Assembly (NCBI RefSeq): GCF_016595675.1
Contig: NZ_JAENJH010000002.1
Span: forward strand, 1,116,001-1,180,000
Reading direction: 5' to 3'
Length of the DNA stretch: 64,000 bases
Origin: Prauserella cavernicola
GTDB taxonomy: Bacteria > Actinomycetota > Actinomycetes > Mycobacteriales > Pseudonocardiaceae
This document shows positions 33,061 through 54,006 of the stretch, piece after piece. The notes under the pieces were generated by a model. That model was given only the letters and a program-made list of their open reading frames with translations, was not told the origin of the DNA and did not search any database. The position numbers were made by a program, and so were the translations under genes. Positions within the stretch are counted from its first letter, which is position 1. Each line of letters starts with the position of its first letter.

Positions 33061-34128
33061 GTGCAGCAGGCCGACCGTCCGCTCGTCGTGGCGAGCGACG
33101 ACACCGTGCTCGACGAGATCCAGCGGATCGCGGCAGCCGTCGGCTGCGAGAGCGAGTGGGTGCGCGACCTCGGGGCCGCGCGCGAACACTGGGCCCACGC
33201 GCCGCTCGTTCTCGTCGACGACACCGCTGCTCTGCTCGACACGCCGCTGCCGAGGCGAGCGGACGTGCTGCTCGTCTGTAAGGGCGCTCCCGAACCGGCG
33301 TCGTGGCGGCGGGCGTTCGCGCTCGGTGCCCGCGACGTCGTCACGCTGCCCGACGGCGAGGACACGCTCGTCGCGGCGTTCGCCGATGTCGCGGAAGGTC
33401 CGAGCGACCGACGGGGACGAGTGCTCGCCGTTGTCGGAGGACGCGGCGGAGCGGGTGCCTCGGTACTCGCTGCGAGTGTGGGGCTTGGTGTGGCCCGAAC
33501 CGGCGGTTCCGCGCTGCTCGTCGACTGCGATCCCCTGGGCGGCGGGGTCGACCTGCTCCTCGGCTCCGAGCAGACCGACGGCGTGCGCTGGCCCGGTCTG
33601 CGCGTGCAGTCGGGGCGAGTGTCGATGGCCGAGCTGGAAGCGGCGTTGCCGGCCAGGAAAATCGGTGCCGGGCGGCTGTCGGTGCTCTCGTGCGATCGCG
33701 AGGGGCCGGGGCCGAGCTCGGACGCCGTGGCCGCGGTCGTCGAAGCCGGGCGGCGCGCGGGCAGAACCGTCGTGTGCGACGTGCCCCGGCACCCCGACGC
33801 CGCCGCGGCGGAGGCCCTGCGGCACGCCGACCTCGTGGTGCTGGTGGTGCCTGCCGAGGTCCGCTCCTGCGTGGGTGCCACGCGCGTCCTCGCAGGTCTC
33901 GACTGTCCCGGTGAAGTCCGGGTGCTGGCCCGCGGTCCCGCGCCAGACGGACTGAGCCCTGGCGAGGTCGCCGACGCCGTCGGTGTTGCCCTGCTCGGCT
34001 CTGTCCGCACCGACCGCGGGCTGGCGAGAGCCGTCGAGCGCGGTGCGTTCAACCCACGTCCCGGTAGCGCGCTCGGTCGCGCCGCCCGCACCGTGCTCGA
34101 CGCTCTCCACTCCGCACCTAGTTGTTGA
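33061..34128 (+). CDS. ssd: Septum-site-determining protein Ssd (MinD/CpaE-like)
   Basis: A 355-residue protein with an N-terminal receiver-like part and a C-terminal MinD/ParA-like domain. The Walker A region is degenerate (VVGGRGGAGASVLAA), as in CpaE/Ssd proteins, and LLVDCDPLGGGVDLLLG is the switch region. In mycobacteria Ssd affects septation, while CpaE relatives place Tad pilus machinery; location before tadA suits both. GTG 33061 is preceded by GGGGGTGG. Its last 11 bases overlap the SDR gene on the other strand. Confidence 0.85.
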   Translation: MQQADRPLVVASDDTVLDEIQRIAAAVGCESEWVRDLGAAREHWAHAPLVLVDDTAALLDTPLPRRADVLLVCKGAPEPASWRRAFALGARDVVTLPDGEDTLVAAFADVAEGPSDRRGRVLAVVGGRGGAGASVLAASVGLGVARTGGSALLVDCDPLGGGVDLLLGSEQTDGVRWPGLRVQSGRVSMAELEAALPARKIGAGRLSVLSCDREGPGPSSDAVAAVVEAGRRAGRTVVCDVPRHPDAAAAEALRHADLVVLVVPAEVRSCVGATRVLAGLDCPGEVRVLARGPAPDGLSPGEVADAVGVALLGSVRTDRGLARAVERGAFNPRPGSALGRAARTVLDALHSAPSC

Positions 34129-34855
34129 ACCCGCCGTCCACCGCCAGCACGGCGCCGGTCACGTAGGCGCCGCCGTCGCCCGAGAGGAACGCGACGGCGG
34201 AGGCGATCTCGGCCGCCTCGGCGTAGCGGCCGAGTGCGGTGAAGTCGCGGATCGTGTCCGCGTTCGGACCGTCGGCGGGGTTGGTCTCGGTGTCGGTGGG
34301 ACCGGGGCTCACCACGTTGACGGTGATGCCCCGTGGTCCCAACTCCCTGCCGAGACCCTTGGCGAGACCGGTGAGGGCCGCCTTGCTCATCGAATACGCC
34401 GAGAATCCGGAAAACACCACGCGTTCTGCCACGTTGCTGCCGATGTGGATGATCCTGCCGCCGGAGGTCATGTGCCGCGCCGCCGCCTTCGCCGCCGCGA
34501 ACGGAGCGCGCACGTTCACCGCGAGTGTCTCGTCGATCTCCGCGATACCCAGTTCTTCCAGCGGCGCCACCAGGAACACACCCGCGTTGTTGACGAGGAC
34601 GTCCAGCCTGCCGAACTCGGCCGCCGTGCGGTCGACGGCCTCGGTGACGGCCTCCGGGTCCGCGCTGTCCGCGCGGATCGTGAGCGCTCGACGGCCGGCG
34701 GCTTTGATCCGGCCGGCCACCTCCGCCGCTCTGTCCTCGTTGTGCTGAAAGGTTATGGCCACGTCGGCACCATCCTCGGCGAGCCGAAGCGCCGTCGCCG
34801 CACCGATTCCCCTGCTTCCACCGGTCACCAGTGCGACCTTGTCTGTGAGGTTCAT
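34118..34855 (-). CDS. SDR family oxidoreductase
   Basis: A classical short-chain dehydrogenase/reductase of 245 residues. The NAD(P) loop is VTGGSRGIGAA, NNAG is in DVLVNNAGVF, and the catalytic set is Ser (HIGSN), Tyr-x3-Lys (YSMSK). The C-terminal SPGPTDTE and DGGFNN are typical. The protein resembles FabG-like enzymes of unknown substrate. It sits between ssd and tadA, which are neighbours in mycobacteria, so it appears to be an insertion into the tad locus. Confidence 0.88.
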   Translation of the reverse strand: MNLTDKVALVTGGSRGIGAATALRLAEDGADVAITFQHNEDRAAEVAGRIKAAGRRALTIRADSADPEAVTEAVDRTAAEFGRLDVLVNNAGVFLVAPLEELGIAEIDETLAVNVRAPFAAAKAAARHMTSGGRIIHIGSNVAERVVFSGFSAYSMSKAALTGLAKGLGRELGPRGITVNVVSPGPTDTETNPADGPNADTIRDFTALGRYAEAAEIASAVAFLSGDGGAYVTGAVLAVDGGFNN

Positions 34856-34918
34856 GGGTCCAGTTTCTGGATTTCCGCGGCCAGGATCCGGCGGGAATCG
34901 GACCTCTCGCTGTGCGAG

Positions 34919-34945
34919 TTATCCACATCGGACCGGTTGTCCACA
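34919..34945 (+). promoter_or_regulatory. Two DnaA-box-like sites upstream of tadA
   Basis: TTATCCACA (34919-34927) is the E. coli consensus DnaA box and TTGTCCACA (34937-34945) is the actinobacterial form. The second one and its flank (GTTGTCCACAGGTTCG) are identical to the third site upstream of ssd. They lie 76-102 bases before tadA. Confidence 0.6.
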
Positions 34946-35020
34946 GGTTCGCGGACTTCACCTTGTTCGCGCCTCGGCGAGTCTTCGATCGTGGACGTAC
35001 AGCCGAACGGGGGGTTCACG

Positions 35021-35932
35021 ATGGATGGCACGACAGTCCACTCACGACAGGAGCGGCCGGAGACCGACACGGAGCTGGTCGAGCGCGTGCGCAGGCGAAT
35101 CGCCGGAGCGGGTTCGGGTACCGATCCCCGCACGGTCGCCGACGCGGTTCGCGCCGAAACCGGTGGTGTCGCGGGGCATCTCGACATCCTCGACGCGCTC
35201 AGGTTGCTGCGGCACGAGTTCGTCGGGGCCGGACCGCTGGAACCGTTACTGGCCGATCCCGGCGTCTCCGACGTACTAGTCACCGCACCCGACGAGGTGT
35301 GGATCGATGGCTCCAACGGCCTGCGCCGCACCGAGATCCGCTTCTCCGACGAGGAGGCGGTCCGGCGGCTCGCGCAGCGGCTCGCGCTCGCCGCGGGGCG
35401 CAGACTCGACGACGCCCAGCCGTTCGTCGACGGCTGGCTTCCCGGCAGCGGTCCGCACGGCCGGGTCCGCCTGCACGCGGTGCTGCCGCCGGTCGCGGCC
35501 GAGGGCACCTGTCTCTCCCTGCGGGTCCTGCGCCCCGCCGTGCACGACCTGCGCGCGCTGCGCAGGCTCGGCACGGTCGGCGGCGATGGGCTCGTCCTGC
35601 TCCGCGCACTCGTGTCGGCCAGGCTCGCGTTTCTCGTCACCGGAGCCACCGGCTCCGGCAAGAGCACGCTCCTGGCCGCGCTGCTCGGCGAGGTGGCGCC
35701 CACGGAGCGCATCGTCTGTGTCGAGGACGCGGGTGAGCTGCAACCCGCGCATCCACAGTTCGTTCGCCTCGTCGCGCGGCCACCGAACGTCGAGGGTGCG
35801 GGCGAGGTGACGTTGCGCGAACTCGTCCGCGAGGCGCTGCGCATGCGCCCCGACCGGCTCGTCGTCGGCGAGGTCCGGGGACAGGAGGTGTGCGAGCTAC
35901 ACCGTTGTCAAGTACCTATACTCCGAGCATGA
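35021..35932 (+). pseudogene. tadA: TadA/CpaF-like secretion ATPase, cut by the prophage
   Basis: The N-terminal two thirds of a TadA-family ATPase that powers Tad pilus assembly. The Walker A motif GATGSGKST is at about residue 208, the Asp box in VCVEDAGELQ and the Walker B region in RMRPDRLVVGEVRGQEV. The expected continuation (LL-ALNTGHDG, the His box) is missing: after GQEVCEL the frame enters phage sequence and stops at 35930-35932. About a fifth of the protein is lost, so the ATPase should be inactive while the prophage is present. The rest should lie past the right prophage end, outside the window. Confidence 0.85.
35891..35915. other. Left attachment site (attL) region
   Basis: Similarity to TadA stops within TGCGAGCT (35891-35898), and the integrase gene starts at 35929. 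The crossover of a serine integrase is only a few bases long, so the core must lie near 35885-35900. The exact core needs attR or an empty site. Confidence 0.55.
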
Positions 35933-37320
35933 CCGTGACTGCCGCGATCTACTGTCGACTGAGCTGGGCGCCGGACGGATCACTGGAAAACGTCGATCGG
36001 CAAGAGTTGGACGCCCGCGCGTTGGCCCAGCGTAACGGCTGGCGAGTGAGCGAGAACCACATCTACAAGGACAACTCCGTCTCGGCCTGGCAGCGCAATC
36101 GCAAGCGCAGGGGCTGGGACGCGATGCTCGAAGCGATCAAGAACAACCAGGTCAACGGCATCATCGTCTACCACGGAGACCGCCTCGTACGTCAGCCCTG
36201 GGACCTTGAGTTGCTGCTGAGGCTTGCCGACGAGCGCCGCCTGCAACTGGCATCGGTGTCCGGGGTTAGGGACCTCAACAGTCCGGACGACAGATTCGTC
36301 CTTCGCATTGAGGCAGCGCAGGCGTGCAAGGCCAGCGACGACACATCGAGGCGTGTCAAGCATGCATGGGAAAGGCGCGCCGAGAAGGGCCTGCCTGCGG
36401 GCGGTGGACGGCGTCCGTTCGGATTCGAGGCAGACAAGGTTACGCATCGCCCAGACGAGGCCGTGCTCGTCGAGGAGGCCGCTGAGCGGCTGGTCGCGGG
36501 ACAGACGATCGCCGGAGTCGTGGCCTGGTTGAACGAACGCTCCACAACCAGCATGGGGAACCGCTGGGATCCGCGAGCCATGCAGAACGTGCTGCTAGCG
36601 CCTCGTGTGGTCGGCCTGATCCAACGTCAAGGACAGACCTACGAGGGGGCTTGGGCCCCGATCATCTCAGTGGAGCTCTGGGAGGAAGTGAAGGCGTTGT
36701 TCGCCAGGAACGCCAAGCTCTTCCCGTACCAGGGGCGTGCCCGTCGATACCTGCTGACGGGTGTCGCGGAGTGCTACAACTGCGGCAGCACGCTGAGTAG
36801 CAAGCCGACCGGCGGACGGAACCGCAAGACTTCGCGAATCTACTACTGCCGACAGTGCAAGCGTGCTGGTCGGAACACGGAGCACCTCGACGAGTACGTG
36901 GTGACGCAGGTGCTCGCGGTGCTCAACCGGCCGCGGTTCAAGGAGCGATTAGCTGAGGCAGCGAATGCGGATCCGAAGGTCGGTAAGGAGATCGCGCAGC
37001 TGGAGCGACGTCGCGAAGCCGCGAAGAAGCAGCTTGAGCAACTCGTCGACCACCCCGACATCGATCCTGCTCTCATCGCGAAGTCGCTCGCGGCCTTCTC
37101 TGCGAAGATCGATGATCTGCGGTCTCAGCAGTCGTTGAGCACCCGTCACAGGTTGTTGTTGCGTGCGGCTGGCATGGATCGCGCGGGTTGGGATGCGTTA
37201 CCGCTCGATCTTCGGGCCGAGGTCATCCGTGCGTTGTTCCGCGTAGTCGTTCTGCCGGCGACGTGGCGAGGACCTGGTTTCGATCCCGACTCTGTGAAGC
37301 TAATCCGGGTACCGGGTTAG
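35929..37320 (+). CDS. int: Large serine integrase
   Basis: A 463-residue large serine recombinase that integrates and excises the prophage. The resolvase domain has the catalytic Ser12 in YCRLSWAPDGS, then the recombinase domain (WERRAEKGLPAGGGRRPFGF), a zinc ribbon (CYNCGSTLSS, YYCRQCKRAG) and a coiled coil (IAQLERRREAAKKQLEQL). ATG 35929 lies six bases after a TATACT -10 element, so the message is probably leaderless. The gene borders the attachment site, as is usual for such integrases. Confidence 0.95.
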   Translation: MTVTAAIYCRLSWAPDGSLENVDRQELDARALAQRNGWRVSENHIYKDNSVSAWQRNRKRRGWDAMLEAIKNNQVNGIIVYHGDRLVRQPWDLELLLRLADERRLQLASVSGVRDLNSPDDRFVLRIEAAQACKASDDTSRRVKHAWERRAEKGLPAGGGRRPFGFEADKVTHRPDEAVLVEEAAERLVAGQTIAGVVAWLNERSTTSMGNRWDPRAMQNVLLAPRVVGLIQRQGQTYEGAWAPIISVELWEEVKALFARNAKLFPYQGRARRYLLTGVAECYNCGSTLSSKPTGGRNRKTSRIYYCRQCKRAGRNTEHLDEYVVTQVLAVLNRPRFKERLAEAANADPKVGKEIAQLERRREAAKKQLEQLVDHPDIDPALIAKSLAAFSAKIDDLRSQQSLSTRHRLLLRAAGMDRAGWDALPLDLRAEVIRALFRVVVLPATWRGPGFDPDSVKLIRVPG

Positions 37321-48569: not shown

Positions 48570-48919
48570 CCGCGGCGAAGCGCGCGCCGAGGGCCAAGTC
48601 CGCGGCGACGTCGAAGGCGGTCTACACCGCGGTGAACGCGACGCTGAAGGAACTCAAGCTCGAGGAGCAGGACAAGGCGGCCGCGTCGCTGACGCGGCGG
48701 CTGGCGAAGGCGATCGACCAGGAGACCAGCGGGCGCACGGTCGCCGAGCTGGGCCGCGCGATGCTCGCGGTGCTGGAGTCGCTCGGCGCGACGCCGGCCG
48801 CGCGCAAGGCGATCCTGCCGAAGGGAGGTGCGCCCCTTGACGACGGTGGTGGAAGCACCAAGAAGGCCAAGCTCATCGAACTCCGCGGAGACCACGCCGG
48901 ACGTACTGGGTCGGACTGA
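48566..48919 (+). CDS. Terminase small subunit (putative)
   Basis: A 117-residue protein directly before the large terminase. A basic Lys/Ala-rich N-terminus is followed by helices (VYTAVNATLKELKLEEQDKAAASLTRRLAKAI) and a second helical pair (LGRAMLAVLESLGATPAARKAIL), the pattern of small actinophage terminase subunits that recognise phage DNA. Its end overlaps the large subunit by 83 bases in another frame. Confidence 0.7.
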   Translation: MTAAKRAPRAKSAATSKAVYTAVNATLKELKLEEQDKAAASLTRRLAKAIDQETSGRTVAELGRAMLAVLESLGATPAARKAILPKGGAPLDDGGGSTKKAKLIELRGDHAGRTGSD

Positions 48920-50495
48920 ACCGCGGCTGTTCACGCCTCCACTGGTCACCGGCTCGCCTGGGCCGTGTGGCTGCGGGTGCGCGCTGACGCCGGCGACCTC
49001 CTACGGGTTCGCCGTCGACGAGTTCGCCCGCGACATCCTCGAGCAGCCGCTGGACCCATGGGAGCGGTGGCTGGTGATCCACGCGGGCGAGCTGCTGCCC
49101 GATGGGCGGCCGCGGTTCCGCAAGGTGCTGGTGATCGTCGCGCGGCAGAACGGCAAGACGCACGTTCTGGTGGTGCTGTCGCTGTACTGGCTGTTCGTGA
49201 TGCAGGTCGGGCTCGTGCTGGGCACCTCGACGAACCTCGACTACGCGCGCGAGTCGTGGGAGAAGGCCGTCGAGCTCGTCGAGTCCATCGAGGAGCTGGC
49301 CGAGGAGGTCCCCAAGGGCGGGATCCGCAAGGCCAACGGTGAGCAGACGTTGACGATCGCCCGGACGGTGAAGGGCAAGCGGCACAGGTCTCGCTACAAG
49401 ATCGCGGCCAGTAACAGGAAGGGCGGCCGGTCGCTCACCGTGCACAAGCTCATCCTCGACGAGCTGCGCGAGCACGACTCGTGGGCCGCCTGGAACGCTG
49501 CCTACAACGCGATGAACGCTGTACCCGACGCGCAGGCGTTCGGGATCACGAACAAGGGCGACGCCCGCGCCGTGGTGCTCAACTCCCTGCGTAAGGACGC
49601 CGTCGAGGTCAACGAGGTCACCGGCCGCGAGACGATGCGCGCCGACGGCGATCCCGAGCTGGGGCTGTTCGAGTGGAGCGCTCCGCAAGGCTCAGAGCCG
49701 GACGACCCGCATGCTCTGGCCCAGTCCAACCCGAATCTCGGCCGCCGCATCAGCCTGCGCTCGCTGCTCGCCGACGCGCGGCGCGCGAAGCGCAACGGCG
49801 GCGAGGAGCTGGCGCAGTACCTGACCGAGATCCTGTGCATGGACGTGCCGAACCTCAACCCGGCCATCAGTGCCGCGGGCTGGGCCGAAGGTCACGTGCC
49901 CGGCGACCTGTCCGAGTTGCGTGACCAACTGGCGCTGGTTGTCGACGTGTCGATGGACGAACAGCACGCCGCACTGCTCGCCGCCGCCCAGCTGCCCGAC
50001 GGCAGGGTGCGGATCGAGCCGGTGCACGCCTGGTCCGGGCCGACGGCGGTCAAGGACATGCGCGCCGAGGTCAAGGGCCTGGTCGCGCTCGTGCGGCCGC
50101 GCAAGCTGGGCTGGTTCCCGAACGGCCCGGCCGCCGTGGTCGCGGCGGATCTCGCCGAGGGCGAGGACTGGCCACCCGAGGACGTCGAGGTTGAGGCGAT
50201 CCGCCGGGACGTGCCCGCGGTGTGCATGGGCTTCGCTGAGCTGGTCAAGTCCGGGCAGGTCCTGCACTCCGACGACCCGATGCTCAACGCCCAGGCCGGT
50301 GGCGCCGAGAAGCTGCCGCGTGGCGACGCGTGGGTGTTCACCCGGCACGGCGCCGGCCATGTCAGCGGCATCTACGCCGCGGCCGGCGCGGTGCACCTGG
50401 CGCGCACGCTCCCGGTGCCGAAGCCACCGCCGAAACCGGTGATTTTGCGTGGACGCCGAACCAGTGACGCGTCAGACGGGAAATCGTCCGGCTAG
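48837..50495 (+). CDS. terL: Terminase large subunit
   Basis: A 552-residue packaging motor. The ATPase Walker A-like motif VARQNGKT is at about 101-108 and Walker B LILDELREH at about 206-213 (Asp208, Glu209). The nuclease domain begins at LVVDVSMDEQHAAL (Asp370). TTG 48837 is chosen because AAGGGAGG lies eight bases upstream; GTG 48828 overlaps that site. It cuts phage DNA and pumps it into the head through the portal. Confidence 0.92.
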   Translation: MTTVVEAPRRPSSSNSAETTPDVLGRTEPRLFTPPLVTGSPGPCGCGCALTPATSYGFAVDEFARDILEQPLDPWERWLVIHAGELLPDGRPRFRKVLVIVARQNGKTHVLVVLSLYWLFVMQVGLVLGTSTNLDYARESWEKAVELVESIEELAEEVPKGGIRKANGEQTLTIARTVKGKRHRSRYKIAASNRKGGRSLTVHKLILDELREHDSWAAWNAAYNAMNAVPDAQAFGITNKGDARAVVLNSLRKDAVEVNEVTGRETMRADGDPELGLFEWSAPQGSEPDDPHALAQSNPNLGRRISLRSLLADARRAKRNGGEELAQYLTEILCMDVPNLNPAISAAGWAEGHVPGDLSELRDQLALVVDVSMDEQHAALLAAAQLPDGRVRIEPVHAWSGPTAVKDMRAEVKGLVALVRPRKLGWFPNGPAAVVAADLAEGEDWPPEDVEVEAIRRDVPAVCMGFAELVKSGQVLHSDDPMLNAQAGGAEKLPRGDAWVFTRHGAGHVSGIYAAAGAVHLARTLPVPKPPPKPVILRGRRTSDASDGKSSG

Positions 50496-50536
50496 TTGAC
50501 AGATTGACCGAAAATCTTCCTGCTAGTCTCGGTCGT

Positions 50537-53500
50537 GTGGGGCTGTGGCGGACGGTGTTCGGCGGGGGCTGGCGCGATGCGCCGGCCCCCGGTCGTCCCC
50601 GCCCCCCGCACCTGACGTCGAACAACGTCGCCTTCGAGCTGAACGCGCCCGAGATGATCCGTCGCGGCGGATCGACGACGGGCCCGCTCGCGCCCCGCGT
50701 CGGCCGCGCCGAGGCCTTGACCGTCGGCGCGGTGAAGCGCGCGCGAGACCTGGTGTGCGCCACGCTCGGCACCCTGCCGATCCGGCTGCACGACTCCACC
50801 CGGAACGCGATCCGCTCCGATCTGCTCGAGCAGCCGGAGAGCGACGTTGCCCGCTCGGTCACCATGACCCGCATCGCCGAGGACATGCTGTTCGAGGGTG
50901 TCTCCTGGCTACGCATCACCGAGTTCGGCTGGCACGGGTTCCCCACCAAGGTCCGCCGCCTGGAACCGCGCAGTGTCACCGTGCGCACCGACGCCCGCGT
51001 GTACGTGTCCAGTGAGGACGGTCGGCCGCAGGGCATCGCCGAGGAGCACGTGCCCGACGCCGAGCTGATCCGGATCGACTCGCCCAACGAGCCGCTGCTG
51101 AAGTCCGCCGCGCGGGCCATCCGAATGGCGATCGCGCTGGACCAGGCCACCGAGCGCTACACCAGGGACCCGCTGCCGCTGGGCTACTTCAGCCCTGCCG
51201 AGGGCATGGCCGACCAGGACCCGAATGAGATCCAGCCGTTGCTCGACGAGTGGGAGACCGCCCGCTCTGAGCGCTCGTGGGGCTACATCGGTGCCGCGCT
51301 CAAGGCGAACGTGCTGCAGTGGGACCCCGAGAAGCTGCAGCTCGCCTCGTCGCGCAACGCGATCGTGCTGGAGATCGCCCGGCACGCCGGTGTCGACCCG
51401 GAAGACCTCGGGGTGTCGACCACCTCGCGCACCTACGCCAACGCCGAGCAGCGCCGCCTCGACCTCGTCGACTTCACCCTGGCCGCCTACGTCGGCGCGA
51501 TCGAGACCCGGTTGTCGATGCCCGACGTCGTGCCCGGCGGGCACCTCGTGCGCTTCGACTACGCCGGGTTCCTGCGCAGCGACACCAAGACCCGCATGGA
51601 GACCTACAAGGTCGGCCGCGAGGTCGGCGTCTACAACGACCAGCGGATCGCCGAGATCGAGAACATCCCCAGCGCTGTCCCGCAGCCCCCGCCGAAGCCC
51701 GCGCCGCGGCCGGCCGACACCCCCGACGAGGAGACCACCGTGCAGCAGTCGGCCCCGCGCCCGCTCCGCGTTGCCCCCGCCCCCGCGCACGTGCCCTCGG
51801 CGCAGTTCGCCAGCACCGAGACCGGCACGGCCCTGCAGACCTTCACCTTCGGTGGCGACGCCGTGGCGGCCCAGTTCGCCGTCGACAGTGCGAAGAGGAC
51901 CATCACCGGGCTCGCGGTGCCGTGGAACATGATCGCCCGATCGGGGTGGGCGTTGTGGAAGTTCCCGCCGGATTCGCTGGTGTGGTCCGATGTCTCGCGC
52001 GTGAAGATGTTCCGCGATCACGACTACGACCAGGCCGTCGGTGTCGCGACGTCGCTGCAGTCCACCGACGCGGGCCTGGTGGCCACGCTCAAGGTCGCCC
52101 GCGGCGCCGAGGGCGACACGATCCTGACCCTCGCCGAGGACGGCGTGCTCGACGGCCTGTCCATCGGCGTGTGGTTCGACGGTGAGTCCGACGACTGGCA
52201 GCCCGACCCCGCCGACGAGCGCGTGCGCCTGGTCCGCCGCGCGTCCCTGCGTGAAGTCAGCATCACCCCGATGCCCTCGTTCGACACCGCCCGCATCACG
52301 TCCGTGACCGCATCCCAGACCTCGCCCGGGGCATCGGCCCCGACAGCAAAGGAGAACAGCACCATGACCGCACCGGCTCCCGAGCAGCAGCCCGCTGCCG
52401 CGCCCGCCGCCCCGGCTGCTCCGGCCGCCGGTACCACCGCCGCGCCCGCCGCTCCGGCCGCGCCGGTGCAGGCCTCCGCGCCCACCGTCGACATGGCCCA
52501 GTTCACCGCGGGCATGAGCGAGGCCGTCGCCACCGCCGTCGCCGAGGCCTTCGCCAAGCTGCCGTTCCAGCAGCAGCACGAACGTCAGGTCGTGCCCGCC
52601 GGCCGTGCCGTGGTCACGCAGGAAGCGCCGGTCTACTCGATGAACGGCTACGGCCACTCGCTCGTGCGCGACTCCTGGCGCGCGCACCGCGAGTACGACT
52701 CCGAGGCCCGCGAGCGGCTGCGCAAGTTCGAGGCGCAGACCGACGACATCGCCAAGCAGGCCGCGTCCGTGATGTTCGCGGCGAACACCACCAACGCGGC
52801 CGCCGTGATCCCGCCCGGCTACCGGCCCGACCTCTACGTCACGCAGCTGATGCGCGGCCGCCCGCTCGTCAACGGTGTCTCGCGCGGCGCGCTCGAGGAC
52901 GCGACCCCGTTCACCATCCCGTCGTTCACCTCGGCATCGGGCATGAGCAGCCAGCACACCGAGGGCACCAACCCCAGTCCCGGCACGCTCGAACTGGACG
53001 TCGTCACCGTCACCCCGCGCGCGATCTCGGGCACTTTCCAGCTCACGCGCGAGATCGTCGACAGTTCGAACCCGGCCATCGACGCCATCGCCATGCAGGC
53101 GATGGGCGAGTCCTACAGCCAGCAGACCGAGGGCATGGTCTACGCCGAGGTCAACGGCGCCAACGGCCAGGGCGGCCCCATCACCGCCGGTTTCACCCCC
53201 TCCGGTGCGCAGGCCTCCGCCACGACCGGCGGTTCGGCTGCTGAGGGCACCTTCGGTGGCCGCGAGCTGATCGCCGGCATTCGCGGCGCCGAGGCGCTCT
53301 ACCCGTTCCGCCGCTTCGCGGGACCGACCCGCGGCTACCTCTCGCAGGAGGGCACGAGCGCGCTGGCCACCGCGGTCGACAACGACGGGCGCCCGCTGCT
53401 GCCGCCGGCCAACCCCTCGAACTCGGCCGGTACCGGTGTGGCCGGGCAGGCGTGGGTGATCGACAACCTCGTGTTCGAGCCGTGCTGGTCGATGACCGGC

Positions 53501-53695
53501 AACGCTGCGGGCGACGCCGACGCGCTCATGTTCAACCAGGCCGACGTGTGGGCGTGGGAGTCGGGCCTGCTGACGTTCCGCTACGAGGAGCGCAACGGCC
53601 CGGCCAACGTCGACCTCGCGCTGTTCGGGTACTTCGCGTCCCGCGTGCTGCGCCCGGTCGGCCTCTCCGCGGTCCGCCACACCCGGGGCGAGTGA
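50537..53695 (+). CDS. Portal-protease-major capsid fusion protein
   Basis: One uninterrupted frame of about 1052 residues encodes three head proteins that are normally separate. Residues 1-401 are an HK97-type portal (VGLWRTVFGGG start, DPNEIQPLLDEWE, GVSTTSRTYANAEQ). Residues 402-609 are an HK97 prohead protease (His495 in KMFRDHD, Ser542 in GLSIGVWF). Residues 610-1052 are an HK97-fold major capsid protein (VIPPGYRPDLYV, FTIPSFTSASG, GTFQLTREIVD). GTG 50537 gives a typical portal start; TTG 50504 is possible. TTGACA at 50496-50501 may belong to a promoter. Internal ribosome sites precede the protease and capsid parts. Confidence 0.85.
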   Translation: MGLWRTVFGGGWRDAPAPGRPRPPHLTSNNVAFELNAPEMIRRGGSTTGPLAPRVGRAEALTVGAVKRARDLVCATLGTLPIRLHDSTRNAIRSDLLEQPESDVARSVTMTRIAEDMLFEGVSWLRITEFGWHGFPTKVRRLEPRSVTVRTDARVYVSSEDGRPQGIAEEHVPDAELIRIDSPNEPLLKSAARAIRMAIALDQATERYTRDPLPLGYFSPAEGMADQDPNEIQPLLDEWETARSERSWGYIGAALKANVLQWDPEKLQLASSRNAIVLEIARHAGVDPEDLGVSTTSRTYANAEQRRLDLVDFTLAAYVGAIETRLSMPDVVPGGHLVRFDYAGFLRSDTKTRMETYKVGREVGVYNDQRIAEIENIPSAVPQPPPKPAPRPADTPDEETTVQQSAPRPLRVAPAPAHVPSAQFASTETGTALQTFTFGGDAVAAQFAVDSAKRTITGLAVPWNMIARSGWALWKFPPDSLVWSDVSRVKMFRDHDYDQAVGVATSLQSTDAGLVATLKVARGAEGDTILTLAEDGVLDGLSIGVWFDGESDDWQPDPADERVRLVRRASLREVSITPMPSFDTARITSVTASQTSPGASAPTAKENSTMTAPAPEQQPAAAPAAPAAPAAGTTAAPAAPAAPVQASAPTVDMAQFTAGMSEAVATAVAEAFAKLPFQQQHERQVVPAGRAVVTQEAPVYSMNGYGHSLVRDSWRAHREYDSEARERLRKFEAQTDDIAKQAASVMFAANTTNAAAVIPPGYRPDLYVTQLMRGRPLVNGVSRGALEDATPFTIPSFTSASGMSSQHTEGTNPSPGTLELDVVTVTPRAISGTFQLTREIVDSSNPAIDAIAMQAMGESYSQQTEGMVYAEVNGANGQGGPITAGFTPSGAQASATTGGSAAEGTFGGRELIAGIRGAEALYPFRRFAGPTRGYLSQEGTSALATAVDNDGRPLLPPANPSNSAGTGVAGQAWVIDNLVFEPCWSMTGNAAGDADALMFNQADVWAWESGLLTFRYEERNGPANVDLALFGYFASRVLRPVGLSAVRHTRGE
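51732..51742 (+). promoter_or_regulatory. Internal ribosome site for the protease part
   Basis: GAGGAG lies six bases before the in-frame GTG 51740, at the junction of the Pro-rich portal tail and the protease domain. It could yield a 651-residue protease-capsid product. The site overlaps Glu codons, so it might be chance. Confidence 0.4.
52364..53695 (+). CDS. Major capsid protein from internal start
   Basis: AAAGGAG (52348-52354) lies nine bases before ATG 52364, in frame with the fusion. Starting here gives a 443-residue capsid protein with an Ala/Pro-rich scaffold-like N-terminal arm (about 60 residues) and the HK97 fold after it. A capsid needs over 400 copies against 12 portals, so a strong internal start would solve the copy-number problem. 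Cleavage of the arm by the protease is expected in HK97-type phages. Confidence 0.65.
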   Translation: MTAPAPEQQPAAAPAAPAAPAAGTTAAPAAPAAPVQASAPTVDMAQFTAGMSEAVATAVAEAFAKLPFQQQHERQVVPAGRAVVTQEAPVYSMNGYGHSLVRDSWRAHREYDSEARERLRKFEAQTDDIAKQAASVMFAANTTNAAAVIPPGYRPDLYVTQLMRGRPLVNGVSRGALEDATPFTIPSFTSASGMSSQHTEGTNPSPGTLELDVVTVTPRAISGTFQLTREIVDSSNPAIDAIAMQAMGESYSQQTEGMVYAEVNGANGQGGPITAGFTPSGAQASATTGGSAAEGTFGGRELIAGIRGAEALYPFRRFAGPTRGYLSQEGTSALATAVDNDGRPLLPPANPSNSAGTGVAGQAWVIDNLVFEPCWSMTGNAAGDADALMFNQADVWAWESGLLTFRYEERNGPANVDLALFGYFASRVLRPVGLSAVRHTRGE

Positions 53696-53697
53696 CG

Positions 53698-54006
53698 ATG
53701 GCTGCCCGCAAGCGGAGCACGAGCACCGCCGCCGCGGCTCCGGAGCAGGCCGCGACCGCGCAGGGGGCGGCCGCGTCAGCTCCGCAGCCCACCAGCGCCG
53801 CACCGGAACCTGTTGCGGCTGAGTCGGCCCCGGCTGCCGACGAGCAGCAGGCAGCCGGGGCCGAGCCGGAGCCCGCTCTGGCCGAGCCCAGCGCCTTCGT
53901 ACCCGTGCACACCTACAAGGTCGTGCGCCGCGATGGTGCGCCGGTGCGCGCCGGTGGCCACGTGCTCACCGACGACGGCTGGGCGCCGGAATCGAGCGCG
54001 CGGTGA
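53698..54006 (+). CDS. Ala/Pro-rich phage protein, 102 aa
   Basis: The first two thirds are low complexity (Ala, Pro, Glu, Gln). The last 35 residues look folded (FVPVHTYKVVRRDGAPVRAGGHVLTDDGWAP). It lies between capsid and connector genes, so it may be a head decoration or linker protein. ATG 53698 is two bases past the capsid stop. Confidence 0.55.
   Translation: MAARKRSTSTAAAAPEQAATAQGAAASAPQPTSAAPEPVAAESAPAADEQQAAGAEPEPALAEPSAFVPVHTYKVVRRDGAPVRAGGHVLTDDGWAPESSAR

Follow-up and report, generated by a model that had tools for sequence, protein, structure and literature searches.

A probable nested head gene joining portal, prohead protease and major capsid protein in a prophage of Prauserella cavernicola

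We analyzed a stretch of 64,000 nucleotides (nt) from the soil actinomycete Prauserella cavernicola (contig NZ_JAENJH010000002.1, positions 1,116,001 to 1,180,000; hereafter the window), in which one open reading frame (ORF) of a prophage encodes a portal protein, an S78 prohead protease and an HK97-type major capsid protein. Judged from its sequence, this ORF is probably a nested temperate-phage gene, with one messenger RNA (mRNA) read in three ways to give the triple fusion, a protease-capsid protein and a free capsid protein.

One frame for three head domains

The features concerned, with lengths in amino acids (aa) or nt, are the following.

50524-50529, + strand: TAGTCT, a -10-like box of the TANNNT type and putative leaderless promoter; preceded by TGC, 7 nt before GTG 50537
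50537-53695, + strand: triple-fusion ORF, portal, S78 prohead protease and HK97-type major capsid protein; 1052 aa, 112.5 kDa
50729-51661, + strand: portal domain, Pfam PF04860; residues 65-375, E 1.5e-29
51728-51733, + strand: GAGGAG, Shine-Dalgarno-like, at the protease-capsid start; 6 nt before GTG 51740
51740-53695, + strand: predicted nested protease-capsid product from GTG 51740; 651 aa, 68.2 kDa
51899-52309, + strand: Peptidase_S78 domain, PF04586; residues 455-591, E 2.7e-11
52348-52354, + strand: AAAGGAG, Shine-Dalgarno-like, at the capsid start; 9 nt before ATG 52364
52364-53695, + strand: predicted nested capsid product from ATG 52364; 443 aa, 46.1 kDa
52805-53425, + strand: Phage_capsid domain, PF05065; residues 757-963, E 7.7e-7

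The frame runs without a stop codon from GTG 50537 to the TGA at 53693-53695, with TTG 50504 as a possible alternative start, and the remaining two + strand frames contain 23 and 6 stops across 50537-53695. All three domains exceeded their Pfam cut-offs, with 103.7 bits for the portal (cut-off 39.1), 44.3 bits for S78 (cut-off 21) and 29.2 bits for the capsid (cut-off 24.2), which together with the frame check confirmed the original prediction that portal, protease and capsid share one stop-free frame. PHROGs concurred with the Pfam domains (PHROG 2263, major head protein, E 3e-56, residues 440-1043), and the PDB sequence matches of the portal part were the portals 3kdr, 8cez and 9lbn. In the S78 domain, His495 (52019-52021) and Ser542 (52160-52162), the presumed catalytic residues by analogy with HK97, were conserved in all of the 37 proteins aligned. 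The predicted capsid product begins with a proline- and alanine-rich (P/A-rich) N-terminal part, possibly a scaffolding delta domain, followed by the capsid domain. The predicted masses of the three products agree with the sizes of about 110, 70 and 46 kDa anticipated earlier.

An antisense open frame of 964 aa (50909-53803, - strand) overlaps the fusion gene and is probably a by-product of the high GC content. Because the DNA is GC-rich, open-frame length by itself is weak evidence, as this overlapping frame illustrates; the weight lies with three successive domains sharing one frame and with the repetition of this arrangement in relatives. Isolates and metagenomes supplied 27 more loci with the triple frame (28 including the window), at 34-76% identity to the window. 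In this count the near-copies L016 and L018 were dropped, the close pairs L020/L021 and L083/L084 were counted apart, and L019, which is without its first 84 portal residues, was counted as fused. The database search proposed with the original prediction thus also settled the concern about sequencing error: since relatives carry the same frame, and the domains and protease residues are conserved, we rejected a sequencing or assembly error, a decayed prophage or a pseudogene as an explanation that has almost no probability left.

Starts at the junctions and at the portal

The two Shine-Dalgarno-like sequences noted at the outset were verified at their distances from ATG 52364 and GTG 51740, and, when the 62 in-frame start sites were ordered by their duplex energy with the 16S tail, took first (AAAGGAG) and second (GAGGAG) place. 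For all loci, the best site was taken in each junction window, which for the capsid start was positioned from where the protease domain ends, and was called strong at a duplex energy of -8 or lower; expected counts came from windows of equal width elsewhere within the same frames. At the capsid junction a strong site was present in 29 of 34 loci (2.0 expected), with best energies from -6.3 to -12.1 across the 34 and with ATG (27 loci) or GTG (7 loci) as the chosen codon. At the protease junction a strong site was present in 19 of 25 fused loci (1.4 expected), one of which, L026, uses a TTG unusually near the protease. The view of the internal starts as devices is thereby strengthened, as most relatives have starts at these two junctions as well. 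The capsid start is the more constant of the two, because the protease-start site is wanting in more loci. The peptides before the capsid Met vary (KEN, REE, QEG, RKE), and the purine run is constant. Predicted mRNA folding was far weaker at the capsid start, with a median of -5.8 versus -13.7 kcal/mol along the ORF (34 loci), and to a moderate degree weaker at the protease start, where the values were -9.7 versus -13.8 (in the 19 loci picked for their strong site). In a column-wise alignment, a weak test given that the linker aligns poorly, the best junction column held a start codon in 14 of 22 rows. Throughout, the near-copies L007, L016, L018, L074 and L075 were dropped; L084 was dropped from the start-site, folding and portal-start tests and L081 from the protease-start test (no motif match), and the truncated L008, L019 and L022 were left out wherever the missing part was needed.

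Since a phage head is built with 12 portals but with capsid subunits in the hundreds, a 1:1 fusion alone would be insufficient. This bears on the possibility that the triple fusion is the sole product, a polyprotein cut into three by the S78 protease, with the internal sites as relics. A polyprotein would be consistent with the lack of any stop between the domains, with the invariant protease His and Ser and with linkers that are P/A-rich and variable in length, but it implies one portal per capsid subunit and leaves the recurring ATG/GTG start sites and the weak folding at the capsid start unexplained. We consider it quite unlikely.

For the nested gene, the portal start is the third point of entry. 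It shows hardly any Shine-Dalgarno complementarity: its median duplex energy was -1.65 (-1.1 in the window), and of the 22 fused loci whose portal start was assigned, 21 had the stronger duplex at the capsid start. Instead, a TANNNT box, a feature absent from the original prediction, precedes the portal start by 5-7 nt in 18 of the 24 fused loci whose starts were assigned, and an unassisted search of the first 90 codons found it at 5-7 nt in 17 of 26 loci versus 0.021 per window inside genes. At this spacing the transcription start would fall at the portal start codon, and the data suggest a leaderless portal start; leaderless mRNAs are common in mycobacteria, according to the accessible parts of PMC4633059 and PMC3898074. 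The window also contains TTGACA at 50496-50501, with an off spacing of 22 nt to the -10-like box. L030 carries, rather than a TANNNT box, a strong Shine-Dalgarno site at the portal start. The portal starts of L020 and L021 were assigned differently in the duplex-energy and TANNNT tests, and that of the window was assigned in the TANNNT test only. Reading by eye, we noticed what seem to be short inverted repeats, with GGTATTTCTATACC as one example, ahead of the -10-like box in L026, L077, L078, L081 and L082; such repeats before the portal start are possible activator or operator sites.

Several results weigh against reading the gene as nested with a leaderless portal start. Five of the 34 loci miss the -8 threshold before the capsid, at -6.3 to -7.6, and 6 of the 25 fused loci miss it before the protease, where L077 and L078 fall short narrowly and L003, L020, L021 and L023 have no credible site (-1.7 to -4.7). 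Synonymous shuffles gave no clear codon-level selection (Fisher p 0.28 for the protease, 0.02 for the capsid), and by this test the start-site signal resides in the amino acids encoded. The loci share kinship, so the p-values are too small and the argument rests on the counts. At the portal, 6 of the 24 fused loci are without TANNNT at the given spacing, two further starts could not be assigned, the box is likewise present in 2 of 6 split relatives, and a strict sigma-70 scan identified no promoter at this place in the window. Finally, among eight protease-capsid genes of annotated records, the three of Emperor, SallySpecial and a Corynebacterium heidelbergense element have no capsid start at the usual place.

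Distribution, split relatives and known systems

In the Pseudonocardiaceae, the fusion was found in 14 of 390 genomes including the window's (13 others; one of the 14, G228, was counted via L005/L014), and 100 of the 390 have a portal match. Named hosts of fused loci are Amycolatopsis, Actinophytocola and Labedaea; the prophage of L001/L012 belongs to Amycolatopsis roodepoortensis DSM 46661. Outside this family one further genome, G606, carries the fusion; it was the only one besides the window in a class-level sample of 394 genomes and the only one among 22 genomes of its own family. A phylum-level sample yielded the fusion in 0 of 396 genomes besides the window, and the sole other frame of at least 999 aa there (G512) matches MuF. 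The frame of G606 (L096) aligns to the window protein over 4-1051 with 49% identity, and its capsid score of 22.7 bits is slightly below Pfam's 24.2. Among 20 long portal frames scanned with Pfam, L096 was the one triple fusion, 12 from other prophages matched MuF behind the portal (L085-L089, L093-L095, L097-L099, L105; five above Pfam's MuF cut-off) and 7 showed a portal alone. Frames below about 800 aa in the genome survey were scanned in part, with L091 (contig edge after the portal) and L106 outside the scan; the shortest fused frame has 944 aa. In phage and plasmid records, no place with 80% query coverage was found for the window protein (best 60 of 385 and best 20 of 182) or for L096 (best 40 of 560), a test that could miss records with a diverged capsid.

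A scan of viral contigs gave 11 loci, of which four have the triple frame, six have the portal split from protease-capsid and one is truncated; L008 and L022 look split as an effect of truncation. Portal-protease linkers took 18 different lengths (47-137 aa) among the in-frame loci, a set defined by being in frame. In the protease-capsid tree 28 of 34 loci are fused, a share obtained with searches that favoured kin of the fused query, and the holding of the frame through many length changes in these loci suggests selection for the joined frame. The same tree (34 rows) forces at least three changes between fused and split, and an approximately unbiased test on it rejected a single fused clade (p 0.0004); it was built by a quick method, with the outgroups L107-L109 left out and L010 on a long branch. 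The portal tree (37 rows) needs four state changes, and its well-supported branches force only one. On these trees the fused or split state has been altered several times, and repeated fusion and repeated splitting both fit.

These changes would also suit incidental read-through, by which ordinary coupled genes have a missing portal stop that is tolerated and the joined domains are trimmed or idle. In four split relatives (L004, L006, L009 and L010) the stop codon of the portal gene and the likely start of the next gene overlap by a few bases, so that a small change could join the two. Read-through does not, however, account well for a frame that stays joined through so many linker lengths and at identities as low as 34%, or for fusion as the majority state, though this majority comes with the search bias just mentioned, and we regard it as unlikely.

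The nested gene has partial counterparts in several phages. Fusions of S78 protease and HK97-type capsid have been described for small actinophages (accessible parts of PMC7302621 and PMC5513430), in line with the earlier statement that such fusions are known, and small actinophages with these fusions were the best phage-record matches of the window protein among the matches listed. In the small actinophages (Arthrobacter AN, Microbacterium EE, Gordonia, Rhodococcus RRH1), protease, scaffold and capsid lie in one frame downstream of the portal, as here; their portal is a separate gene in the annotated records opened, whereas the window has no portal stop. Related phages with three separate genes had been named beforehand as a finding that would speak against the prediction. 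The portal is indeed separate in the six viral-contig relatives and in the annotated phages opened, but protease and capsid still form one gene there.

No mention of internal starts in these fusions was found in the accessible parts of PMC7302621 and PMC5513430. In five of the eight annotated protease-capsid genes, a junction start with a ribosome site is present (Decurro, Kels, Kaijohn, Penoan and phiExGM16; among the internal sites of Kels it ranks second in strength), the in-frame starts lying at aa 160 (L107), 176 (L108), 166 (L109), 160 (L110) and 165 (L112). This suggests that some actinophage protease-capsid annotations may hide a separately started capsid protein; if so, the annotation would be corrected and the sufficient supply of capsid in such phages explained. 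Emperor and SallySpecial, both Gordonia phages, have their strongest internal start well ahead of the point where the protease domain ends (aa 121 in L111, aa 134 in L113), and the annotated gene start may be too far upstream or the gene may hold another nested product.

The head module of HK97 has the same three families in the same order, as separate genes in HK97 and in one frame here. In lambda C/Nu3, an in-frame internal start gives an abundant shorter head protein; lambda nests the scaffold in the protease, which is of a different family. Here, by contrast, the capsid would be nested in the protease and the protease in the portal, and an internal start with a ribosome site recurs in relatives. 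Lambda scaffold-protease fusions are mentioned in the accessible part of PMC5513430. Portal-MuF fusions, described in PMC7302621 (accessible part), also join the portal to a head protein in one frame, but the partner is MuF and not protease plus capsid. A portal-protease-capsid fusion was not named among the matches listed in the literature searched, which was seen in part and consisted mostly of papers other than subscription ones. Fusions of protease with capsid or of portal with MuF have precedents, as do nested genes for head proteins.

Proposed head assembly and prophage setting

We propose that the mRNA begins at or beside the portal start codon, as a leaderless transcript set by the TANNNT box 5-7 nt upstream. 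Translation from its 5' end would yield the portal-protease-capsid fusion in few copies, translation from GTG 51740 the protease-capsid protein, and translation from ATG 52364 the free capsid protein in many copies. With no stop after the portal part, every portal subunit would be synthesized with a protease and a capsid subunit attached. The existence and amounts of the three products, and the entry of the fusion into the portal ring, are what we infer from the DNA.

The tethered copies could help to start the prohead around the portal and carry the protease inside, and the linkers would later be cut by the S78 protease. The portal is thought to nucleate head assembly, and in HK97 the scaffold, a domain of the capsid protein, surrounds the portal, with the scaffold parts of thirty capsid subunits around it (accessible part of PMC10275583). 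By analogy, the tethered capsid could take such scaffold places around the portal. How a twelve-vertex head acquires exactly one portal is an old question. As a tentative answer, offered as a possibility in which we place limited confidence, the twelve fusion-borne portal subunits might act as a built-in seed, so that the shell starts at exactly one vertex with the protease loaded inside, is completed with free capsid made from the nested start, and is released from the tethers by the protease; the leaderless start for the rare fusion versus Shine-Dalgarno starts for the abundant parts would set the ratio on one mRNA. A natural covalent portal-protease-capsid link would make the question of how a head starts testable by genetic cutting.

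The gene immediately upstream of the fusion ORF is the following.

48828-50495, + strand: terminase large subunit

The fusion ORF is followed by genes for a major tail protein and a tape measure protein. Across the 7.2 Mb and 90 contigs of the host genome, portal, S78 and capsid gave a single match each, all within the fusion frame, and no second match to any of the three was found. A large serine integrase at 35890-37320 adjoins the 5' part of a gene for a presumed TadA/CpaF-like ATPase, both lying in the region 33983-37320 of the window; the TadA/CpaF-like identity is read from motifs rather than from a profile search. No convincing attachment repeat was found at the prophage ends. The apparent 3' part of the TadA/CpaF-like gene lies about 10.56 kb beyond the window end (at about 10560 in L115). 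The element thus appears to be a serine-integrase prophage inserted within a TadA/CpaF-like secretion ATPase gene, and from the positions of the two gene parts, one beside the integrase and the other past the window end, its length would be about 38.7 kb.

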